Made by a program: the position numbers and the translations under genes
Shown here: in pieces, positions 545 through 20,823 of the stretch
How positions within the stretch are numbered: the first letter of the stretch is position 1
How the letters are laid out: each line of letters begins with the position of its first letter
From: a virus
Reading direction: 5' to 3' (one strand)
DNA length: 21,196 nucleotides
IMG/VR virus record: IMGVR_UViG_3300025276_000257
Span: 1-21,196 of that record
Notes under the pieces: model-generated
Told to the model about the DNA's origin: nothing
Databases searched by the model: none
What the model saw: the letters and a program-made list of their open reading frames with translations, nothing else

Positions 545-3500
545 TTAACCTTCTAGTGTTACTATGCGAGCTGTTAAGGCTTCAATTAATGCGTTCTGTT
601 CTTGCATTGCTTTGACGAGTATTGGTACAAACTTGCTGTATTGAATACCCATTTGCTTGCCATCACCTGTTGTAGATACAGTAAGGTTTTTCTTAGCAGC
701 AGTTGTATATCCAGCAGCTTCCTCAAGAGTTTGAACTTCTTGTGCCTTGAAGCCTATGTCTAGCCAGTCTTCTTTGTGAGTACCGTCATGTGTAATAGCA
801 TTTAAATCGGTAGTTATATCCCAACCTTCATGGTCTACGCTGCCGTCTTCGTTGTATGTTGTGACATCTGTTTTATCAATATATTTAGAACGTTTATCCC
901 ACTTGTATGTTACAGGTGCTAATGCCTTAACAAAGTCTAAGCCTAAGTCTAGTGCAGTAAAGTCTGTCTTATCACGTTGGTCTGATGCTACTGTCCAATC
1001 TACTTGTATATGAGCTTCAGCAATGTTTTCATCACCCAATACAATTTTATTGGCATCGTTGGTCATATTACCTCCAGGACTTCCTGTACGTCCTGAATCC
1101 CTACCTACAAATAAATTGTTACCGCCTGAAGTTAAACCGTTTCCTGCTGCTTGACCAATACAAGTATTATTAGCTCCTGTTGCGGCTGCGGCTGCTGATT
1201 TTCCAACTACTGTGTTATCGTTACCACAGTTTCCACTTAATGCTAAATATCCAACTGCAACATTACCTTCACCATCATCATTACCATCACCTGCAAGACC
1301 ACCCACGAAAGTGTTCTGTATGCCTGTGGTTACATTTGCACCTGAAAGATAACCAACTGCTACATTATATGTATCAGTGTTAGTTGAGAAATTCTGGTCA
1401 AATAAAGCCTGATAACCTATTGCAACAGTTTTAGTTCCTTTTACATCTGTACTTAAAGCCTGATAGCCTACAGCTACGTTATTATTAGAAGTGTTTAAAG
1501 CGTCACCAGCTAACCCTCCAATGAGGGTGTTGTTTGTGCCTGTGGTTACTTGTTGTCCTGCATCGTAACCAACTGCTGTATTGTATGTATTAGTAGCTGT
1601 AGTAAAGGCTGACTCTTGTAGAGCATGAGTACCTATAGCTGTTGAGCGACTACCCAATGTATCTGTTGTTAATGCACCCATACCTAAAGCCACGTTAAAG
1701 TCAGCATCAGTTAAAGCATCACCAGCTAGACTACCTATAAGAGTGTTTTGAACGCCTGTGGTTACTGCTGCACCTGCGCCATGACCCACTGCCACATTGA
1801 AAGTATCTGTAGCAGTTGTAAAGTTTTGTACTGATAAGGCAAAATATCCTAATGCAGTAGATTTGCTACCCAAAGTATCTCCTGCTAAAGCTGACATACC
1901 TACTGCTACATTAAAATCAGCATCGGTAAGTGAATCACCTGCAAGACCTCCAATGATAGTGTTCTGTACGCCTGTGGTTACTGCTAGACCTGCGAAATAC
2001 CCTACTGCTGTATTGTAAGTATCTGTAGCAGTATTAAAGTTTTGAGAAAGTAATGCCCCCCGACCTATTGCGGTTGTTTTACTGCCTAAAAAATCACCAC
2101 TTAAAGCACCTAAACCAACAGCAGTATTTTCATCAGCATCAGTTAGTTCATCACCAGCAAGGGCGCCAATTAAGGTGTTCTGTATGCCTGTAGATACATT
2201 TACACCTGCCGATGAACCGATTGCTACGTTGTAAGCAGTAGTAGCAGTTGTATAGTTTTGTTGAGTTAAAGCAGCCTTACCAATAGCCACACTATGAGAA
2301 CCGTGGGTGTTTATAATTAAAGCCTTATCACCAATAGCAGTATTATTACTGCCTATAGTATTTTCCCCTGCTGAATCACCAACTGCTACATTATTAACCC
2401 CAGTTAAGTTGTTGAGTAAAGCATCTTTACCTATCGCTACATTTCCAGAACCTGTGGTATTAGTGCTTAAAGCATTATAACCAACTGCAACATTCTCATC
2501 ACCAGTCGTAATCGCAGTACCAGCTTCGTCACCCACAGCCACGTTGAAATTACCGCCAGATGCTATTGAGTTACCTGCGTTGACACCTGCTCTGAAGTTA
2601 GATGTACCTGCTGTGTTGGTAACAAAATCTGCGCCTGTACCTATCTGAACATTATTGTTTCCACCATCAACAAACAGAGCATCAGTTACACCATTTGATT
2701 CAACACGGAAGTTTACATCGGCAGAATTTTCGTTAAATATTGTGTCGGTTGGAGAAAGTATCATCCCACTAACTCTTTCTGTGCCTCCGATTCCACGAAA
2801 TATTTCTAAGTATCCAGCTTCAGATCCGTTAGAAGCAGTTGCAATGTATGCTTCAATTTGAGCAAATATAAAATCATTACCAGCATCATCTTTGCCAAGA
2901 AACTCAACCTGTCCTAATCCGTCACTATCAGCACCTGTTACACTTCTTGACAACCTTAAATGTGGCCCTGCGTTTGCATCTGTGTCAGTGCTTACTAAAT
3001 TTAAAGTAGTAGCATTATCAGTAGTTGTGATTGTAGAAGCAGCATTAGAAGCAAACCCACCGTTAAACACAGTCGCAGCCGTTGTAGTCAGGACGCCTGT
3101 TACGAGGGCAGTCGTCGCCATGTTTACAGCACCATCAATATCTACAACGTCTAGGTTAGTTGTACCGTCTACGTCTATGTCACCACTAATATCTAGTGAT
3201 GCTCCTGTTAAAACACCTGCAACTGCAAGTGTAGAAGCCATATCCACAGCACCATCAATGTCTACTACATCAAGATTTGTTGTACCGTCTACATCTACGT
3301 TGCCAGATATATCTAATTCTGTACCTACTAGTTTTTGTGTAAGTGTTACTACACCATCACTTGCAATAGCGATTGCATCTGTATCTCCAACAGAACCAAT
3401 CTGTCCAGCATTAGCAATAGTAATACCACCACTATGAATATCTCTACCAGTAAAGGTTGCTACACCATCTACTTGAAGAGTAGTTGCCATGTCTACTGCA

Positions 3501-4507
3501 CCGTCAATGTCAACAATATCTAAATTAGCTGTGCCATCAATATCTATATCTCCAGATATGTCTAAAGACGCACCAGTTAAAACTCCAGCTACAGCTAGTG
3601 TACTAGCCATATCTACTGCACCATCAATATCAACTACATCTAAGTTTGTAGTGCCATCTACATCAAGATCACCGTTAAAGTCTACATTACCTGCGACAGC
3701 AAGTGTTGTAGCCATATCAACCGCACCGTCTATGTCTACAATATCTAAGTTAGTAGTACCATTTACGTCAATGTCACCTTCTATATCTAAGTTACCTGTA
3801 GTAGTTATAGAATCTATATAAGCATTCTTAAAGTAAAGGGAGGCTGTACCTAAGTCTACATCTGAGTCAGTCACAGGAGCAATAGAACCATCGTTAAATG
3901 TAACCTGACCTGTACCACCATTAGCAACAGTAATTACGTTAGAGCCAGAAAATGTAATGCTAGTGTCTGTGTCTCCGTCACCAGCTATAGAGTCAAGTTG
4001 AACCGCACCTACATTTGAGAGTGCAGCATCACCAAAGTCTACAGCACCTGCAACTGTTAATGTTCCAGACACATCTACGTTACCATTAATATCTACAGTA
4101 GTAGCTGCTATTTGTATTTCTGTGTCAGCTACAATGTCAAGCTGTCCATCTGCTGAAGAGTTAATGTATATTGCTGTATCACGGAACTGTATTTTTTCTG
4201 TAGTAGCTATAAGTATGTCATCAGAGAACTCAAAGTAATCCTCATCTTCCATCCACTTTAATACACCATCATTTGACTCACCATCAAATGTTACTGTTAT
4301 GTCTGTACCTGATGTAGCATCACCAATAGTAATAGAAGTACCTAATAACTTAGTTATTGGGCCACCTTCAGCGGCTGTCCCGTCGTGTGTATGTCCTGTA
4401 GACGCAGCAAATGCAGCTAGCAACTGATCAAACTCATTGTTAGTATCTGCTGCTGTAATTACATCGCCATCAGTATAAGAGGACTGTCTCGTATATATAG
4501 CACCCAT
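545..4507 (-). CDS. Tail fibre / tailspike with C-terminal S74 intramolecular chaperone
   Basis: This 1320-residue protein is the likely receptor-binding fibre. Residues 1-60 form an N-terminal tail-attachment region (starting MGAIYTRQSSYTDGDVITAA, then STGHTHDGT) that I recognise from podoviral fibres. Residues about 240-475 are a shaft of five related units containing TTNLD-[IV]-VDIDGAV-[DN]-MA. Residues about 655-1115 are YadA-head-like repeats of the form N-x-A-[VI]-G-x-x-A-[LG], probably a left-handed beta-roll, with an exact 72-residue super-period. The C-terminus (1175-1320) is a Peptidase_S74 chaperone domain: S1175-D-Q-R-D-K1180 matches the Ser/Lys autocleavage dyad, and IGFKAQEVQ-like and C-terminal helix segments follow. 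The chaperone would fold the trimer and then be released. The start abuts the nozzle stop with no gap. The host receptor is unknown. Confidence 0.9.
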   Translation of the reverse strand: MGAIYTRQSSYTDGDVITAADTNNEFDQLLAAFAASTGHTHDGTAAEGGPITKLLGTSITIGDATSGTDITVTFDGESNDGVLKWMEDEDYFEFSDDILIATTEKIQFRDTAIYINSSADGQLDIVADTEIQIAATTVDINGNVDVSGTLTVAGAVDFGDAALSNVGAVQLDSIAGDGDTDTSITFSGSNVITVANGGTGQVTFNDGSIAPVTDSDVDLGTASLYFKNAYIDSITTTGNLDIEGDIDVNGTTNLDIVDIDGAVDMATTLAVAGNVDFNGDLDVDGTTNLDVVDIDGAVDMASTLAVAGVLTGASLDISGDIDIDGTANLDIVDIDGAVDMATTLQVDGVATFTGRDIHSGGITIANAGQIGSVGDTDAIAIASDGVVTLTQKLVGTELDISGNVDVDGTTNLDVVDIDGAVDMASTLAVAGVLTGASLDISGDIDVDGTTNLDVVDIDGAVNMATTALVTGVLTTTAATVFNGGFASNAASTITTTDNATTLNLVSTDTDANAGPHLRLSRSVTGADSDGLGQVEFLGKDDAGNDFIFAQIEAYIATASNGSEAGYLEIFRGIGGTERVSGMILSPTDTIFNENSADVNFRVESNGVTDALFVDGGNNNVQIGTGADFVTNTAGTSNFRAGVNAGNSIASGGNFNVAVGDEAGTAITTGDENVAVGYNALSTNTTGSGNVAIGKDALLNNLTGVNNVAVGDSAGENTIGSNNTAIGDKALIINTHGSHSVAIGKAALTQQNYTTATTAYNVAIGSSAGVNVSTGIQNTLIGALAGDELTDADENTAVGLGALSGDFLGSKTTAIGRGALLSQNFNTATDTYNTAVGYFAGLAVTTGVQNTIIGGLAGDSLTDADFNVAVGMSALAGDTLGSKSTALGYFALSVQNFTTATDTFNVAVGHGAGAAVTTGVQNTLIGSLAGDALTDADFNVALGMGALTTDTLGSRSTAIGTHALQESAFTTATNTYNTAVGYDAGQQVTTGTNNTLIGGLAGDALNTSNNNVAVGYQALSTDVKGTKTVAIGYQALFDQNFSTNTDTYNVAVGYLSGANVTTGIQNTFVGGLAGDGNDDGEGNVAVGYLALSGNCGNDNTVVGKSAAAAATGANNTCIGQAAGNGLTSGGNNLFVGRDSGRTGSPGGNMTNDANKIVLGDENIAEAHIQVDWTVASDQRDKTDFTALDLGLDFVKALAPVTYKWDKRSKYIDKTDVTTYNEDGSVDHEGWDITTDLNAITHDGTHKEDWLDIGFKAQEVQTLEEAAGYTTAAKKNLTVSTTGDGKQMGIQYSKFVPILVKAMQEQNALIEALTARIVTLEG
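1208..2251 (-). repeat. 216-bp tandem super-repeat in tail fibre
   Basis: Within the fibre, five consecutive units begin at residues 753, 825, 897, 969 and 1041 with [TNS]-T-[AN]-T-x-[AT]-[YF]-N. Each is exactly 72 residues (216 bp), and the fifth is incomplete. Each unit holds several YadA-head-like turns (for example AVGY, TTGVQNTLIG, LAGD, ADFNVA). The units differ by many substitutions but not by length, which suggests a fixed structural period and expansion by duplication or recombination. Confidence 0.85.
3083..3790 (-). repeat. Shaft repeat of the tail fibre (five units, mostly 40 residues)
   Basis: The core TTNLD (or TANLD) followed by [VI]VDIDGAV recurs with the core at residues 251, 286, 326, 409 and 449. 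Spacing is 35, 40, 83 and 40 residues, so two neighbouring pairs keep a strict 40-residue (120-bp) step and one gap holds an unrelated spacer (about 350-400). Two units also share the flank STLAVAGVLTGASLDISG identically. This looks like a trimeric beta-rich shaft that grows and shrinks by unit exchange. Confidence 0.8.
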
Positions 4508-16430: not shown

Positions 16431-16682
16431 CTAAGTAACTCTTCTTTTAGCTGTTTTTGTTCTAGGAAACGACCTGTTAGCTGTTTTACTAGACATTTTA
16501 AGGTTTTTACGGCTATTGTTTAGGGGGTTGTTGTTTTTATGCGCTACATCTTTACCGTCACTCTTTTTAGCGACACCACCAGCTACCATCTTAGCTCTTG
16601 CCGTGTTGCGAGATGCACGTTTCTTTATCTGTGCAGGTTTACCTTGGTAGTTTTTGTATTCGCCTTTATAGTTTCTATTCAT
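16431..16682 (-). CDS. HNH endonuclease-like small protein
   Basis: From the ATG at 16682 the product has 83 residues. The motif DVAHKNNNPLNNSRKNL (about 44-60) matches the HNH pattern H-x-[ND]-x-N-x-x-x-N-x-x-x-N-L, with the general-base His present but Ala where Asp or His usually stands as first metal ligand. The C-terminus NRSFPRTKTAKRR is basic and DNA-binding-like. HNH proteins near terminases can help cleave packaging sites, as HK97 gp74 does; whether this one is active is open. A longer frame starts at 16715, but the ATG at 16682 has GAGG about 7 nt upstream and gives a short 8-nt overlap with the small terminase gene, so it is preferred. Confidence 0.68.
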   Translation of the reverse strand: MNRNYKGEYKNYQGKPAQIKKRASRNTARAKMVAGGVAKKSDGKDVAHKNNNPLNNSRKNLKMSSKTANRSFPRTKTAKRRVT

Positions 16683-17043
16683 TGTTACCCTCTTTAGGTG
16701 GTAAATAAAATACACTACTAGATGCTTGGATGTCTACTTTATCCGTTTTAATTATACCTGCTCTATCTAATACATCTTTAGCTGCTACCATTTTTTCTTT
16801 TATGCCTAACTCAGTAGGGTCATTCATAGCGTTACCTAATGCAAAAGCTGCAAGAGGTGCAGTCCTAGCGAAGTAAGAACGTGTAGCGTCCATTATCTCT
16901 TCTTTTAGTGACTCAACTATAATGCGCGTAGGTGTATTGTCACTGTAGCCTGACAGTTTTTTAGCTGTTACTACATCTCCACCTGCTTGATCAAACAATA
17001 CCTCTAAGAAGTTCTGTTGGTTTTCCGTTAGTTGTCTAGCCAT
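16675..17043 (-). CDS. Terminase small subunit-like protein
   Basis: The 122-residue helical protein begins MARQLTENQQNFLEVLFDQA with GGDVVTAKKLSGYSDNTPT (about 21-39), a small-terminase-type HTH in which a Gly-Tyr-Ser segment links two helices. A helical oligomerisation region (IKEKMVAAKDVLDRAGIIK) and a short extended tail (VFYLPP) follow. It would recognise phage DNA and regulate the large terminase motor. The position two genes upstream of the large subunit supports this. The start lies 2 nt after the previous stop behind an A-rich oligo-lysine codon run rather than a normal Shine-Dalgarno site. Confidence 0.78.
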   Translation of the reverse strand: MARQLTENQQNFLEVLFDQAGGDVVTAKKLSGYSDNTPTRIIVESLKEEIMDATRSYFARTAPLAAFALGNAMNDPTELGIKEKMVAAKDVLDRAGIIKTDKVDIQASSSVFYLPPKEGNNE

Positions 17044-17045
17044 AG

Positions 17046-17213
17046 TTACTTTTTCTTCTTTTTCTTAACGTACATACCTTTATTAGCTTTAGGAAAACCA
17101 GCCTTCATATTAGCGTACGCTTTATCTGATATAGTACTCTTAGACTTAGGGTTGCTAGTACCCTTTTTCTTTTTTGCATTTATATTAGCGTATAAACCTC
17201 TTTTAGCTACCAT
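17046..17213 (-). CDS. Small basic protein (GLYANI motif, oligo-Lys tail)
   Basis: An ATG at 17213 opens 55 codons: MVAKRGLYANINAKKKKGTS, a middle with SKSTISDKAYANMKAGFPK, and a tail of six lysines. The GLYANINAK and AYANMKAGFPK segments resemble short repeated motifs that recur in small proteins of marine phages; no function is known to me. The charge suggests nucleic-acid contact. The gene sits 1 nt after the previous stop and 2 nt before the small terminase start, so it is an integral operon member despite its size. Confidence 0.7.
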   Translation of the reverse strand: MVAKRGLYANINAKKKKGTSNPKSKSTISDKAYANMKAGFPKANKGMYVKKKKKK

Positions 17214-17615: not shown

Positions 17616-17798
17616 CTATTTCTTCTTTTTCTTAGGTCTAGCTTTAGCTTGTGCCGTTTTAGATAACTCTTTAAAGTGATACAAACGTTTACTAGATTTA
17701 GTATGTGCTTTACCTGTATGCAATGTGCCATCAGCCATTTTATGCATACTGCCTTTGTGTTCTGTTCCGTCGCGGTTATAATGAGGTACACCTTTCAT
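17616..17798 (-). CDS. Small basic protein (MADGTLHTGKAHT motif)
   Basis: From the ATG at 17798 the product has 60 residues: MKGVPHYNRDGTEHKGSMHK, MADGTLHTGKAHTKSSKRLY, then FKELSKTAQAKARPKKKKK. It is rich in His and Lys with no membrane segment. Similar short proteins with the TLHTGKxHT pattern occur in marine phages as far as I recall, without assigned function. A GTG at 17810 would add four residues and overlap the previous gene; the ATG, 1 nt after that gene's stop, is preferred. The last five codons (all lysine) supply the A/G-rich sequence ahead of the next start. Confidence 0.65.
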   Translation of the reverse strand: MKGVPHYNRDGTEHKGSMHKMADGTLHTGKAHTKSSKRLYHFKELSKTAQAKARPKKKKK

Positions 17799-17799
17799 G

Positions 17800-17901
17800 T
17801 CAGCTACCACACTGACATTTATCGCAACAGTTACACCTAATGTTTAATATAGAACGTACAATACGCTCTAGGTATCGGTATATAGATTTAATGTAATTCA
17901 T
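17800..17901 (-). CDS. 33-aa protein with clustered cysteines
   Basis: An ATG at 17901 opens 33 codons ending in TGA. A basic helical N-terminus (MNYIKSIYRYLERIVRSILN) is followed by CNCCDKCQC, five cysteines in nine residues. This could bind a metal (zinc or copper) or a Fe-S cluster, or be exported and disulfide-bonded. Spacing to its neighbours (11 nt upstream, 1 nt downstream) and an AGGGA element fit an operon gene. A 9-bp hairpin with 3-nt loop (17850-17870) lies inside the frame, so the region could also act as structured RNA. No family recognised. Confidence 0.45.
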   Translation of the reverse strand: MNYIKSIYRYLERIVRSILNIRCNCCDKCQCGS

Positions 17902-17912
17902 AATAGTGTTCC

Positions 17913-18053
17913 CTATTGCATTGTTAATCTTTTAATGTCACCACGACATATACCTAAGTCTCTGAGTTGCCTGTCTGTCATATTCATTAGTTGCCAGTAA
18001 GCTGTTTTATTAGATGTGTATGTTTTATATGTGTTTATTAGTTTCTTGATCAT
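17913..18053 (-). CDS. DUF1127-like small protein
   Basis: The 46-residue ORF reads MIKKLINTYKTYTSNKTAYW then QLMNMTDRQLRDLGICRGDI and KRLTMQ. The pattern L-x-x-M-[ST]-D-R-x-L-x-D-[LI]-G-[IL]-x-R-x-D-I is the signature of DUF1127 (YjiS-like), short Arg-rich proteins abundant in alpha- and gammaproteobacteria; several act in RNA turnover or stress and phosphate responses, for example CcaF1 of Rhodobacter. AGGAG lies 8 nt upstream. It is the first gene after an own promoter. Host-derived origin and a role in host RNA regulation are inference. Confidence 0.75.
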   Translation of the reverse strand: MIKKLINTYKTYTSNKTAYWQLMNMTDRQLRDLGICRGDIKRLTMQ

Positions 18054-18057
18054 TTGA

Positions 18058-18088
18058 ATAACTCCTTTTTAATGACTAAGGGAGTTAT
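18058..18088 (-). promoter_or_regulatory. Hairpin holding the DUF1127 ribosome-binding site
   Basis: ATAACTCC (18088-18081) pairs perfectly with GGAGTTAT (18065-18058). Allowing one bulged C, two further A-U pairs extend it to 10 bp with a 10-nt loop. The GGAG of the DUF1127 Shine-Dalgarno site is in the stem, so translation would need the helix to open. The stem starts about 11 nt after the -10 box, at the probable mRNA 5' end. Confidence 0.65.
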
Positions 18089-18107
18089 ATCATACTTAGT
18101 TATATCA
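18083..18107 (-). repeat. 10-bp direct repeat over promoter -10 and start region
   Basis: TGATATAACT occurs at 18107-18098 and again at 18092-18083, a 15-bp period. The first copy contains the -10 box; the second spans the probable start site and the first hairpin arm. It could be an operator or a duplicated -10 element. Confidence 0.5.
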
Positions 18108-18127
18108 CAAAAATGTTATTATTGCAA
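18099..18127 (-). promoter_or_regulatory. Sigma70-like promoter for DUF1127 gene
   Basis: TTGCAA (18127-18122, four of six) is followed after 17 nt by TATAAC (18104-18099, five of six). It lies in the 96-nt gap between the holin-like gene and the DUF1127 gene, one of the few non-coding gaps in the window. The same TATAACT sequence forms the -10 of the capsid promoter. Confidence 0.6.
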
Positions 18128-18149: not shown

Positions 18150-18455
18150 TTACTTTTCGTGTCCAGCAAAAGCTGATCCAGTAAGTATGGCCCCAAAAGC
18201 TAAGTGAAACAACCCACCACCCATAAGAGTAAAAGGATTATGTTGACCTGTGAGCTTTTTCATTAGCTCCATCTGAACCATCGGTTCTGTAGTAGAATTT
18301 ATAATATCCATAAACTGTGATATGTCTGGTCTATTAATGCCGTACCATATAGGTACAAACATAAAGTCATAGAAACATATAAGTAAGTAAATTATAAGAG
18401 CCGTCCATCGCCAAGTCATAGTAGACTTTTGTTGAGCTGTTAGTTCCTTACTCAT
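18150..18455 (-). CDS. Two-TM protein, holin candidate
   Basis: The 101-residue protein has a short cytoplasmic-like N-terminus (MSKELTAQQKSTM), a first membrane segment rich in aromatics (WRWTALIIYLLICFYDFMFV, about 15-34), a polar middle with MVQMELMKKLTGQHNPF, and a second hydrophobic segment (about 74-97, LFHLAFGAILTGSAFAG) ending GHEK. Size and two segments fit class II holins, which permeabilise the inner membrane to time lysis. I recall related proteins in marine phages annotated as holins. The u-spanin candidate lies upstream in the same run of genes; no endolysin is in the window. No clear Shine-Dalgarno; the start is 6 nt after the preceding stop. Confidence 0.6.
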   Translation of the reverse strand: MSKELTAQQKSTMTWRWTALIIYLLICFYDFMFVPIWYGINRPDISQFMDIINSTTEPMVQMELMKKLTGQHNPFTLMGGGLFHLAFGAILTGSAFAGHEK

Positions 18456-18566: not shown

Positions 18567-18763
18567 TATACAGACTCTCCTATAGGTTGTAACTTAAAAC
18601 AATGTGTTACTACATACTCTTTTTCTTTACTTAGTAGTCTACCCATCTTAGTTACACTTCTTGCACACGCAGGTTTATCTTGAAACAAACCACCTATTCT
18701 AACCATTACATCACAGGTGTCAGCTTCTAGCGTAATACAGTGAAGTATAACAGCTAACCACAT
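18566..18763 (-). CDS. Small exported or membrane-anchored Cys protein, unknown
   Basis: The 65-residue protein begins MWLAVILHCITLEADTCDVM, a short hydrophobic N-terminus resembling a brief signal or anchor, and continues with FQDKPACARSVTKMGRLLS and YVVTHCFKLQP. Four cysteines (9, 17, 33, 55) could form disulfides in the periplasm. Its start overlaps the previous stop and its stop overlaps the next start, both as TAATG. Function is unknown; location between an EF-hand protein and membrane proteins hints at an envelope role. Confidence 0.5.
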   Translation of the reverse strand: MWLAVILHCITLEADTCDVMVRIGGLFQDKPACARSVTKMGRLLSKEKEYVVTHCFKLQPIGESV

Positions 18764-19473
18764 TATTTTTTCTTCTTTTTAGTCATACCACCATACATAT
18801 AACCTGATTTACCTTTTTTAGACATACCACCTTTGTTCATCATTTTAAAGTCTGCACCAGATATCTTACCGTCTTTGTTTTTATCTAGTTTAGATTGACC
18901 ACCTGACATATAACCCATTTTCTTTTTACCCATCATGCCGCCCATGTTCATGTTGTTTTTTGCCATGTCTTTAATTTGTTTTATAAGCATCTGAAAGGTA
19001 CTTAAAGGTTGATTTTTATTATTTATTAATCTAGTTTCAGCAGCAGTTAATACTTTCTTTTTAGGGTTTTTTAAACTAGATACTATACCTTTTAATTTTT
19101 TCTCTAAAGAATCCATTTCTTTTTTTCTTGCAGCTTTTTTATCTGGACCAAATCCCAACTGAAGTTTTTCTAGTTTATCTAAGCTAGATCTTTTTCTTAC
19201 AGTTGCAGGTTTTTTAGTAGTTTTAGCTTTAGCTGCTTTTCTGTCTTTTCTAATCTTTTCTGCCATTTCCATTCGTTTAGCTTCCGCTGCTTCACGGCCT
19301 GTTAACTTTGGCTTAACTGTTTTTTTAACAGGCTTAGGTTTCATACTAAGACCATTACCTTTTGTTTTAGATGCTTTTTTAGCGGCTCTAATTTTTTCTA
19401 GCTTTTCCATGCGTTTAGCTTCTGCTAACTCACGACCTGATAATCCTTGGTTTGCACTAATTTTAACACCCAT
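18763..19473 (-). CDS. Basic repeat protein with EF-hand-like loop
   Basis: The 236-residue, very Lys-rich protein has an internal duplication: residues 11-36 (LSGRELAEAKRMEKLEKIRA...) and 57-82 (LTGREAAEAKRMEMAEKIRK...). An EF-hand-like loop DKNKDGKISGAD (197-208, acidic at positions 1, 5 and 12, Asn at 3) lies near the C-terminus, surrounded by Met/Gly motifs GYMSGG, MNKGGM and GYMYGGM, then TKKKKK. AAGGA precedes the ATG at 19473. The pattern is typical of small proteins in marine phages that I cannot name. Calcium binding is possible; a packaged, DNA-binding protein is one plausible guess. Confidence 0.6.
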   Translation of the reverse strand: MGVKISANQGLSGRELAEAKRMEKLEKIRAAKKASKTKGNGLSMKPKPVKKTVKPKLTGREAAEAKRMEMAEKIRKDRKAAKAKTTKKPATVRKRSSLDKLEKLQLGFGPDKKAARKKEMDSLEKKLKGIVSSLKNPKKKVLTAAETRLINNKNQPLSTFQMLIKQIKDMAKNNMNMGGMMGKKKMGYMSGGQSKLDKNKDGKISGADFKMMNKGGMSKKGKSGYMYGGMTKKKKK

Positions 19474-19487
19474 AATAGTATTCCTTT

Positions 19488-19814
19488 TTATTTAGATTTT
19501 GTTCTGCTTAAAGCTGTAGCACCCATAAAGCCTACAACAACTCCTAGTTGTGCTACTATAAATGTATTTAAAAAACTAGCAGCGGACTGCATTTTCTCTG
19601 CACTTACAATAGGTGTAAATAACACTATGACTGCTACAATAGTTACAGACATAGCTAACCAAGCCATCATACGTTGCGTATCCATTAGCTTGTCTTCGTT
19701 CTCTAGACGTATCCACCTTTCGTGACGATCCATCTCTTCGTCAGTAATAATGCCGTCACCGTCTGTATCAGCTACAGAGTACTTACTGTCTACCTGTAGC
19801 TTCTTAGGTGTCAT
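19488..19814 (-). CDS. EF-hand protein with two membrane segments, holin-like
   Basis: The 108-residue protein has a canonical EF-hand loop at 16-27 (DTDGDGIITDEE, ligands D16, D18, D20, E27), a charged helix (DRHERWIRLENEDKLMDTQR), then two membrane segments (about 49-70 and 82-102: MMAWLAMSVTIVAVIVLF and FIVAQLGVVVGFMGATAL). This domain order is known in marine phages, sometimes annotated as holin-type. A calcium-sensitive membrane pore or lysis regulator is an attractive but unproven idea. The ATG overlaps the previous stop by 4 nt (ATGA). Confidence 0.6.
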   Translation of the reverse strand: MTPKKLQVDSKYSVADTDGDGIITDEEMDRHERWIRLENEDKLMDTQRMMAWLAMSVTIVAVIVLFTPIVSAEKMQSAASFLNTFIVAQLGVVVGFMGATALSRTKSK

Positions 19815-20517: not shown

Positions 20518-20823
20518 TTAACATTTCCATCGTCTTCTAGCTTGTCTTATTCTAGAGTTAGGATCATTCCTAGTCTTAGCTGAACTATTCTTTAGTTGAC
20601 CTGCAGATCTAGCGCAGTAAGACTTTCTACGTTTAGCTGCTTTACTGCCTGGTTTAACCTTACCTGTAACAGCAGTCTTTAACTTACTACCTGGGTTTTT
20701 AGCGCGATACGCTTTCACGCCTTTAGCGGTCATACCTGCACCCTTACTAGTCTTACGGTAGTTAGCCTTCTTACCTGTAGTAGTCTTTGGTATAGCTTTT
20801 TTTGGTGCTGTTGTTCTACCCAC
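20518..20823 (-). CDS. DUF6321-like small basic protein
   Basis: The 101-residue protein starts with GTG, overlapping the upstream gene by 8 nt. Residues 28-75 (KGAGMTAKGVKAYRAKNPGS, then LKTAVTGKVKPGSKAAKRRK and SYCARSAGQL) match the conserved pattern of DUF6321, a short family found in phages, with the hallmark VTGKVKPGSKAAKRRKS-[FY]-C-A-R. The C-terminus RIRQARRRWKC matches the usual arginine-rich ending in W-x-C. Function is unknown; the strong positive charge suggests nucleic-acid binding. No ATG alternative gives the full domain. Confidence 0.75.
   Translation of the reverse strand: MGRTTAPKKAIPKTTTGKKANYRKTSKGAGMTAKGVKAYRAKNPGSKLKTAVTGKVKPGSKAAKRRKSYCARSAGQLKNSSAKTRNDPNSRIRQARRRWKC

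Follow-up and report, generated by a model that had tools for sequence, protein, structure and literature searches.

A predicted promoter embedded in a Shine-Dalgarno-hiding hairpin probably gates a DUF1127 gene in HMO-2011-type marine phages

In bacteriophage T4, the leaders of genes e (lysozyme), soc, 49 and I-TevI hide the Shine-Dalgarno sequence (SD) in long RNA, and RNA from a late promoter in the 5' strand is free of this hiding (PMC3014915, PMC2988022). Leaders of the homing endonuclease genes mobE (phage Aeh1) and segB (T4) likewise have a ribosome-binding site sequestered in the long transcript and an adjacent late promoter (PMC2988022). A DUF1127 gene under the control of an mRNA leader is found in Sinorhizobium meliloti, where duf1127_1 is attenuated by way of a translated uORF and, probably, Rho termination (PMC12218461). 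Among bacterial DUF1127 proteins, CcaF1 of Rhodobacter binds RNA (PMC10253847) and another binds PhoR (PMC12501420). The literature searched, which had few subscription journals, held no study of a phage DUF1127 protein, and a survey of HMO-2011-type phages (PMC9038755) has neither DUF1127 nor promoters in its text.

The window—the whole stretch of DNA analysed here—is a 21-kb viral fragment (21,196 nucleotides) whose portal/terminase region has 73-75% nucleotide identity to the Roseobacter phages CRP-207, CRP-2 and CRP-603. Matches to PHROG and Pfam families reveal a large terminase, a portal, a P22-like coat and a probable small terminase, and the gene order is common with that of the CRP isolates. 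By the kinship of its terminase, portal and capsid genes together with this gene order, the window belongs to an HMO-2011-type phage, the hallmark DNA polymerase being outside the fragment. The window also encodes, on the minus strand, a 1320-aa fibre-like protein (545-4507) that contains repeated blocks; its C-terminus matches the Peptidase_S74 chaperone domain (30.3 bits, cut-off 22). A lysine-rich 236-aa protein (18763-19473, minus strand) has a weak EF-hand-like stretch, DKNKDGKISGADF, under the Pfam cut-off, and a similar stretch, DTDGDGIITDEE, is found within 19488-19814. Several short ORFs around the terminase genes are very rich in lysine and arginine (17616-17810, 17046-17213, 16431-16715, 20518-20823 (-)).

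The 46-aa ORF had been annotated as a DUF1127 protein, and the HMM search agrees: it scores 33.8 bits against PF06568, above the curated cut-off of 23.3. Its gene is under purifying selection (median dN/dS 0.19 over the 34 distinct coding sequences of its clade). The protein resembles the bacterial CcaF1, YjiS and Agrobacterium SDPs in Pfam domain, small size and basic character; it is known from sequence, whereas those are chromosomally encoded and have been shown to bind RNA or PhoR. A DUF1127 gene stands upstream of the terminase genes in the cultured phages CRP-1, -2, -3, -9, -207, -212, -235, -345, -603 and -738, as it does in hundreds of metagenomic contigs. DUF1127-like genes without the leader described below adjoin ribonucleotide reductase in Siovirus and Celeribacter phage P12053L (leaders L163 and L167); the one in P12053L comes after a MazG-like gene, and the one in SIO1 is unannotated.

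Table 1. Features of the DUF1127 locus in the window, in order of coordinate.
Feature	Position	Strand	Basis or remark
Terminase small subunit candidate	16675..17043	-	Downstream of DUF1127 gene; phrog_2538, E 0.00085
DUF1127 gene, 46 aa	17913..18053	-	Pfam PF06568; ATG at 18053
Stem 3' arm, GGAGTTAT	18058..18065	-	Fold; cognate-arm test in relatives
SD, GGAG, within 3' arm	18062..18065	-	Sequence, fold
Stem 5' arm, ATAACTCC, overlapping P2 -10	18081..18088	-	Fold
Predicted P2 -10, TATAAC with TG extension, TGATATAAC	18084..18089	-	Fixed box A distance
Second TATAAC, possible P1 -10	18099..18104	-	15 bp upstream of P2, 17 nt after TTGCAA
Putative box A, GCATAACGGGGTTGCAA	18122..18138	-	About -61 to -45 from P2 start; conserved CGGG flanks, fixed distance, pattern search
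101-aa gene upstream of DUF1127 gene	18150..18455	-	Likely source of read-through RNA

Read along the minus strand, the leader consists of box A, two copies of a 10-bp direct repeat with period 15 (TGATATAACT at 18107-18098 and again at 18092-18083), a loop, AAGGAGTTAT with the SD, and the ATG. The repeat had been described as covering the -10 and the start; its length and period stand and it supplies two -10-like TATAAC copies, but the start codon is not reached. That the SD GGAG sits in a hairpin stem is borne out by the pairing of ATAACTCC with GGAGTTAT, which includes GGAG. The stem had further been placed at the 5' end of the mRNA, and here we differ: the -10 of the nearest predicted promoter, P2, is the 5' arm itself, so the arm should be excluded from its RNA. 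The +1 of P2 is predicted near 18077 by the usual distance from a -10, and RNA from the possible upstream promoter P1 would begin at about 18092 and is predicted to contain the whole hairpin. Folded alone, the window leader is ordinary against shuffles (z -0.57; 46 of 200 equally good), and the significance of the stem therefore comes from the comparison with relatives.

The initial annotation had proposed looking for the same gene and leader in related phages, and both recur: 341 DUF1127 genes whose starts could be used were taken from 411 records and gave 168 distinct leaders, nearly always from related HMO-2011-type phages. A TATAAC-like box is present in 158 of the 168; among those without it are the sequences ahead of the DUF1127 genes of other phage groups (Siovirus, Celeribacter phage P12053L and Melnitz), which do not have this type of leader, and the leader of CRP-738, whose -10 (TATAATG) was missed by the search pattern. 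The predicted -10 nearest the gene (TATAAC/T) lies 42-43 nt after the CGGG of an upstream box, GCATAACGGGKWTGCA (box A), in 154 of the 158 leaders, and its distance to the ATG ranges from 26 to 63 nt. As the -10 is constant from box A and variable from the ATG, box A and TATAACT form a fixed element and leader length is free. The flanks of box A, GCATAA before CGGG and T.GC after it, are conserved though they were not used in selection. This geometry is as expected of a promoter, with box A as a putative activator or upstream promoter site, and gives comparative backing to the earlier suggestion that the gene has its own promoter. A second, upstream TATAAC occurs in 67 of the 158 leaders, at a spacing of 15 bp in 61 of these, and it is this two-box arrangement that appears in the window as the direct repeat. 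The -10 of most leaders lies within or directly before the 5' arm; in CRP-235 (L161) and L398, the whole -10 (TATAAT) is in the loop with the 5' arm upstream of it, still 43 nt (hand count) after the CGGC of box A. Because the -10 overlaps or precedes the 5' arm or sits in the loop, promoter RNA should lack the full stem.

We propose that the leader acts as a cis-acting expression gate. RNA reading through from the upstream genes, as we infer it does, would have both arms, and their pairing would hide the SD so that no DUF1127 protein results. RNA from the gene's own promoter (box A, 43 nt, TATAAC/T), which is presumably active and may be served by an activator at box A, would start beyond the 5' arm, and its free SD would let the protein be made. 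Synthesis would then be tied to the firing of one promoter, probably late in infection; this timing is suggested by the position ahead of packaging and structural genes and by the T4 analogy. The upstream genes are on the same strand as the DUF1127 gene, and no terminator-like site was found on the minus strand between the 101-aa gene and the DUF1127 gene. We consider it likely that read-through RNA is silent and box A promoter RNA translatable in this way; the gene, the arms, the fixed promoter geometry, the co-variation of the arms and the cassette behaviour described below can all be read from the sequence.

The stem covers or abuts the SD across leaders, with arm pairs that differ by clade: ATAACTCC/GGAGTTAT, GGTATAACT/AGTTATACC, ACTATCTCC/GGAGATAGT, ACTCCTATG/CATAGGAGT, CTATGT/ACATAG and CTGT/ACAG. 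The mean MFE of 37 representatives (leader similarity below 80%) is -15.6, compared with -7.6 for shuffles. Within a clade, the outer arms are nearly invariant (alignment A5) and little informative, so arms were swapped between clades instead. Cognate arms of the 37 representatives reach -12.2 kcal/mol and swapped arms -7.6 kcal/mol, with none of 10,000 permutations as good, and the excess persists at 0/10,000 in the single-box set, in the two-box set and with TATAAC excluded. The comparison argues that the stem is kept by covariation in the relatives. An inverted repeat whose arms flank or overlap a -10, in a region that is also a promoter, could also be read as a DNA operator bound by a repressor. 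We regard this as highly improbable: the arms differ between leaders in sequence, in their placement relative to the -10 and in the length of the loop between them, some clades having apical hairpins, with the 3' arm remaining at the SD, whereas a dimeric operator would keep its sequence and spacing. The apical loop hairpins themselves, in leaders L014, L008, L045 and L034, pair GTCAG with CTGAC or ATCAG with CTGAT, so that the difference is compensatory.

Predicted folding was also used to follow the SD. Its unpaired probability is 0.20 in DUF1127 leaders and 0.58 in 107 further genes on those contigs (p about 1e-10). Across 158 leaders the mean is 0.16 for RNA with the 5' arm and 0.80 for the predicted promoter RNA; the 38 representatives give 0.19 and 0.69, a difference that withstands moving the start by 2 nt. 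Some rise is expected for any sequence, as the promoter RNA is shorter. The predicted gain is at most 0.3 in 10 of the 38 representatives; some of these (L091, L143) have a stem abutting the SD. The greater closure of the long RNA relative to controls and the co-variation of the arms are stronger evidence than the rise in openness. For the window, the SD is predicted to be unpaired at 0.02 in read-through RNA, 0.77 in promoter RNA and 0.00 in P1 RNA; the AUG of the promoter RNA is at 0.10, so the start codon may be paired.

Two-box leaders, the window included, may also use the upstream promoter and so make RNA that retains the hairpin. Such RNA would suit the initial annotation's suggestion that the DUF1127 mRNA itself begins with the hairpin and that temperature, a helicase or a ligand opens it: transcription starting from the upstream TATAAC would begin at the stem base and leave the SD hidden. 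The second TATAAC is missing in more than half of the leaders, however, and CRP-235 and L398 have the 5' arm upstream of a -10 that keeps its distance from box A. Stem strength and loop sequence are highly variable, neither a conserved loop nor a ligand pocket is apparent, and no match to any Rfam family turned up at E <= 1; together these make such a switch quite improbable. Translational control through an SD-hiding stem is upheld by the comparison; in place of a switch on the gene's own mRNA, the loss of the 5' arm from RNA of the conserved promoter points to a cis switch between read-through and promoter RNA. A further version, in which P1 of two-box leaders, 15 bp upstream, gives untranslatable RNA, P2 gives translatable RNA and a phage factor at box A chooses between them, we see as possible but rather unlikely; if true, the choice of promoter would switch translation of a host-like regulator with the transcript level unchanged.

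The combination of box A and TATAACT was used as a sequence-only pattern, blind to the gene, and matched at least 111 new viral loci, with DUF1127 the next gene in 111 of 111 of the matches listed. Bacterial genomes gave 106 matches in 257 Gb, none followed by DUF1127; as these are spread over unrelated taxa, a host-derived promoter was rejected. Where the exact pattern is present, the cassette occurs once per complete or long genome, at DUF1127, which led us to reject a general late-promoter family; an extra match in CRP-1 at 39468 is without the flanks of box A and has the look of a chance hit. DUF1127 is 413 to 3824 nt away from the large terminase gene, depending on the locus, and the cassette may come before or after the neighbouring 101-aa gene; promoter, hairpin and gene therefore appear to travel together. 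An apparent absence of DUF1127 beside the 101-aa gene at some loci was rejected, the gene being found on the opposite side. One cassette per genome, linked exclusively to DUF1127, would suit autoregulation, in which the basic DUF1127 protein binds the leader hairpin and tunes its own translation, and the relative CcaF1 of Rhodobacter does bind RNA (PMC10253847). Yet the loop has no conserved protein-binding sequence and the protein could act only on hairpin-bearing RNA, and we judge autoregulation very improbable, though it can coexist with a promoter-in-hairpin gate.

Set beside gene e, soc, 49 and I-TevI of T4, the leaders described here show the same succession of 5' arm, promoter and SD. 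They share with gene e an SD hidden when the 5' arm is present, here in predicted folds, and a promoter in the 5' strand giving RNA without the arm, here a predicted one. Unlike the T4 late promoter TATAAATA, the element is a host-type-looking TATAAC/T -10 with an upstream box A, which also separates it from the T4-type late promoters of mobE and segB, and the gated gene is DUF1127, not a homing endonuclease. The phages are unrelated to T4, the arrangement is conserved over more than 150 divergent leaders, and in some members the loop contains the entire promoter. The S. meliloti duf1127_1 leader differs in having no promoter within the stem (PMC12218461). The proposed mechanism is of a known kind; the phage group, promoter type and topology are new.

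The gene e trick has so far been documented mainly in T4-like phages, and here unrelated, diverse and abundant marine phages would retain it for just one gene, which forms a cassette together with its promoter. The initial annotation had suggested a host-takeover regulator; a gated DUF1127 protein would be in keeping with an action on the host's RNA turnover or phosphate signalling, by analogy with the bacterial proteins, that is harmful to the phage if early. The gate would imply selection against early DUF1127 synthesis, which would open the role of DUF1127 in phages to direct testing, and a single-copy promoter that looks factor-dependent would give a way into the gene timing of these marine phages.
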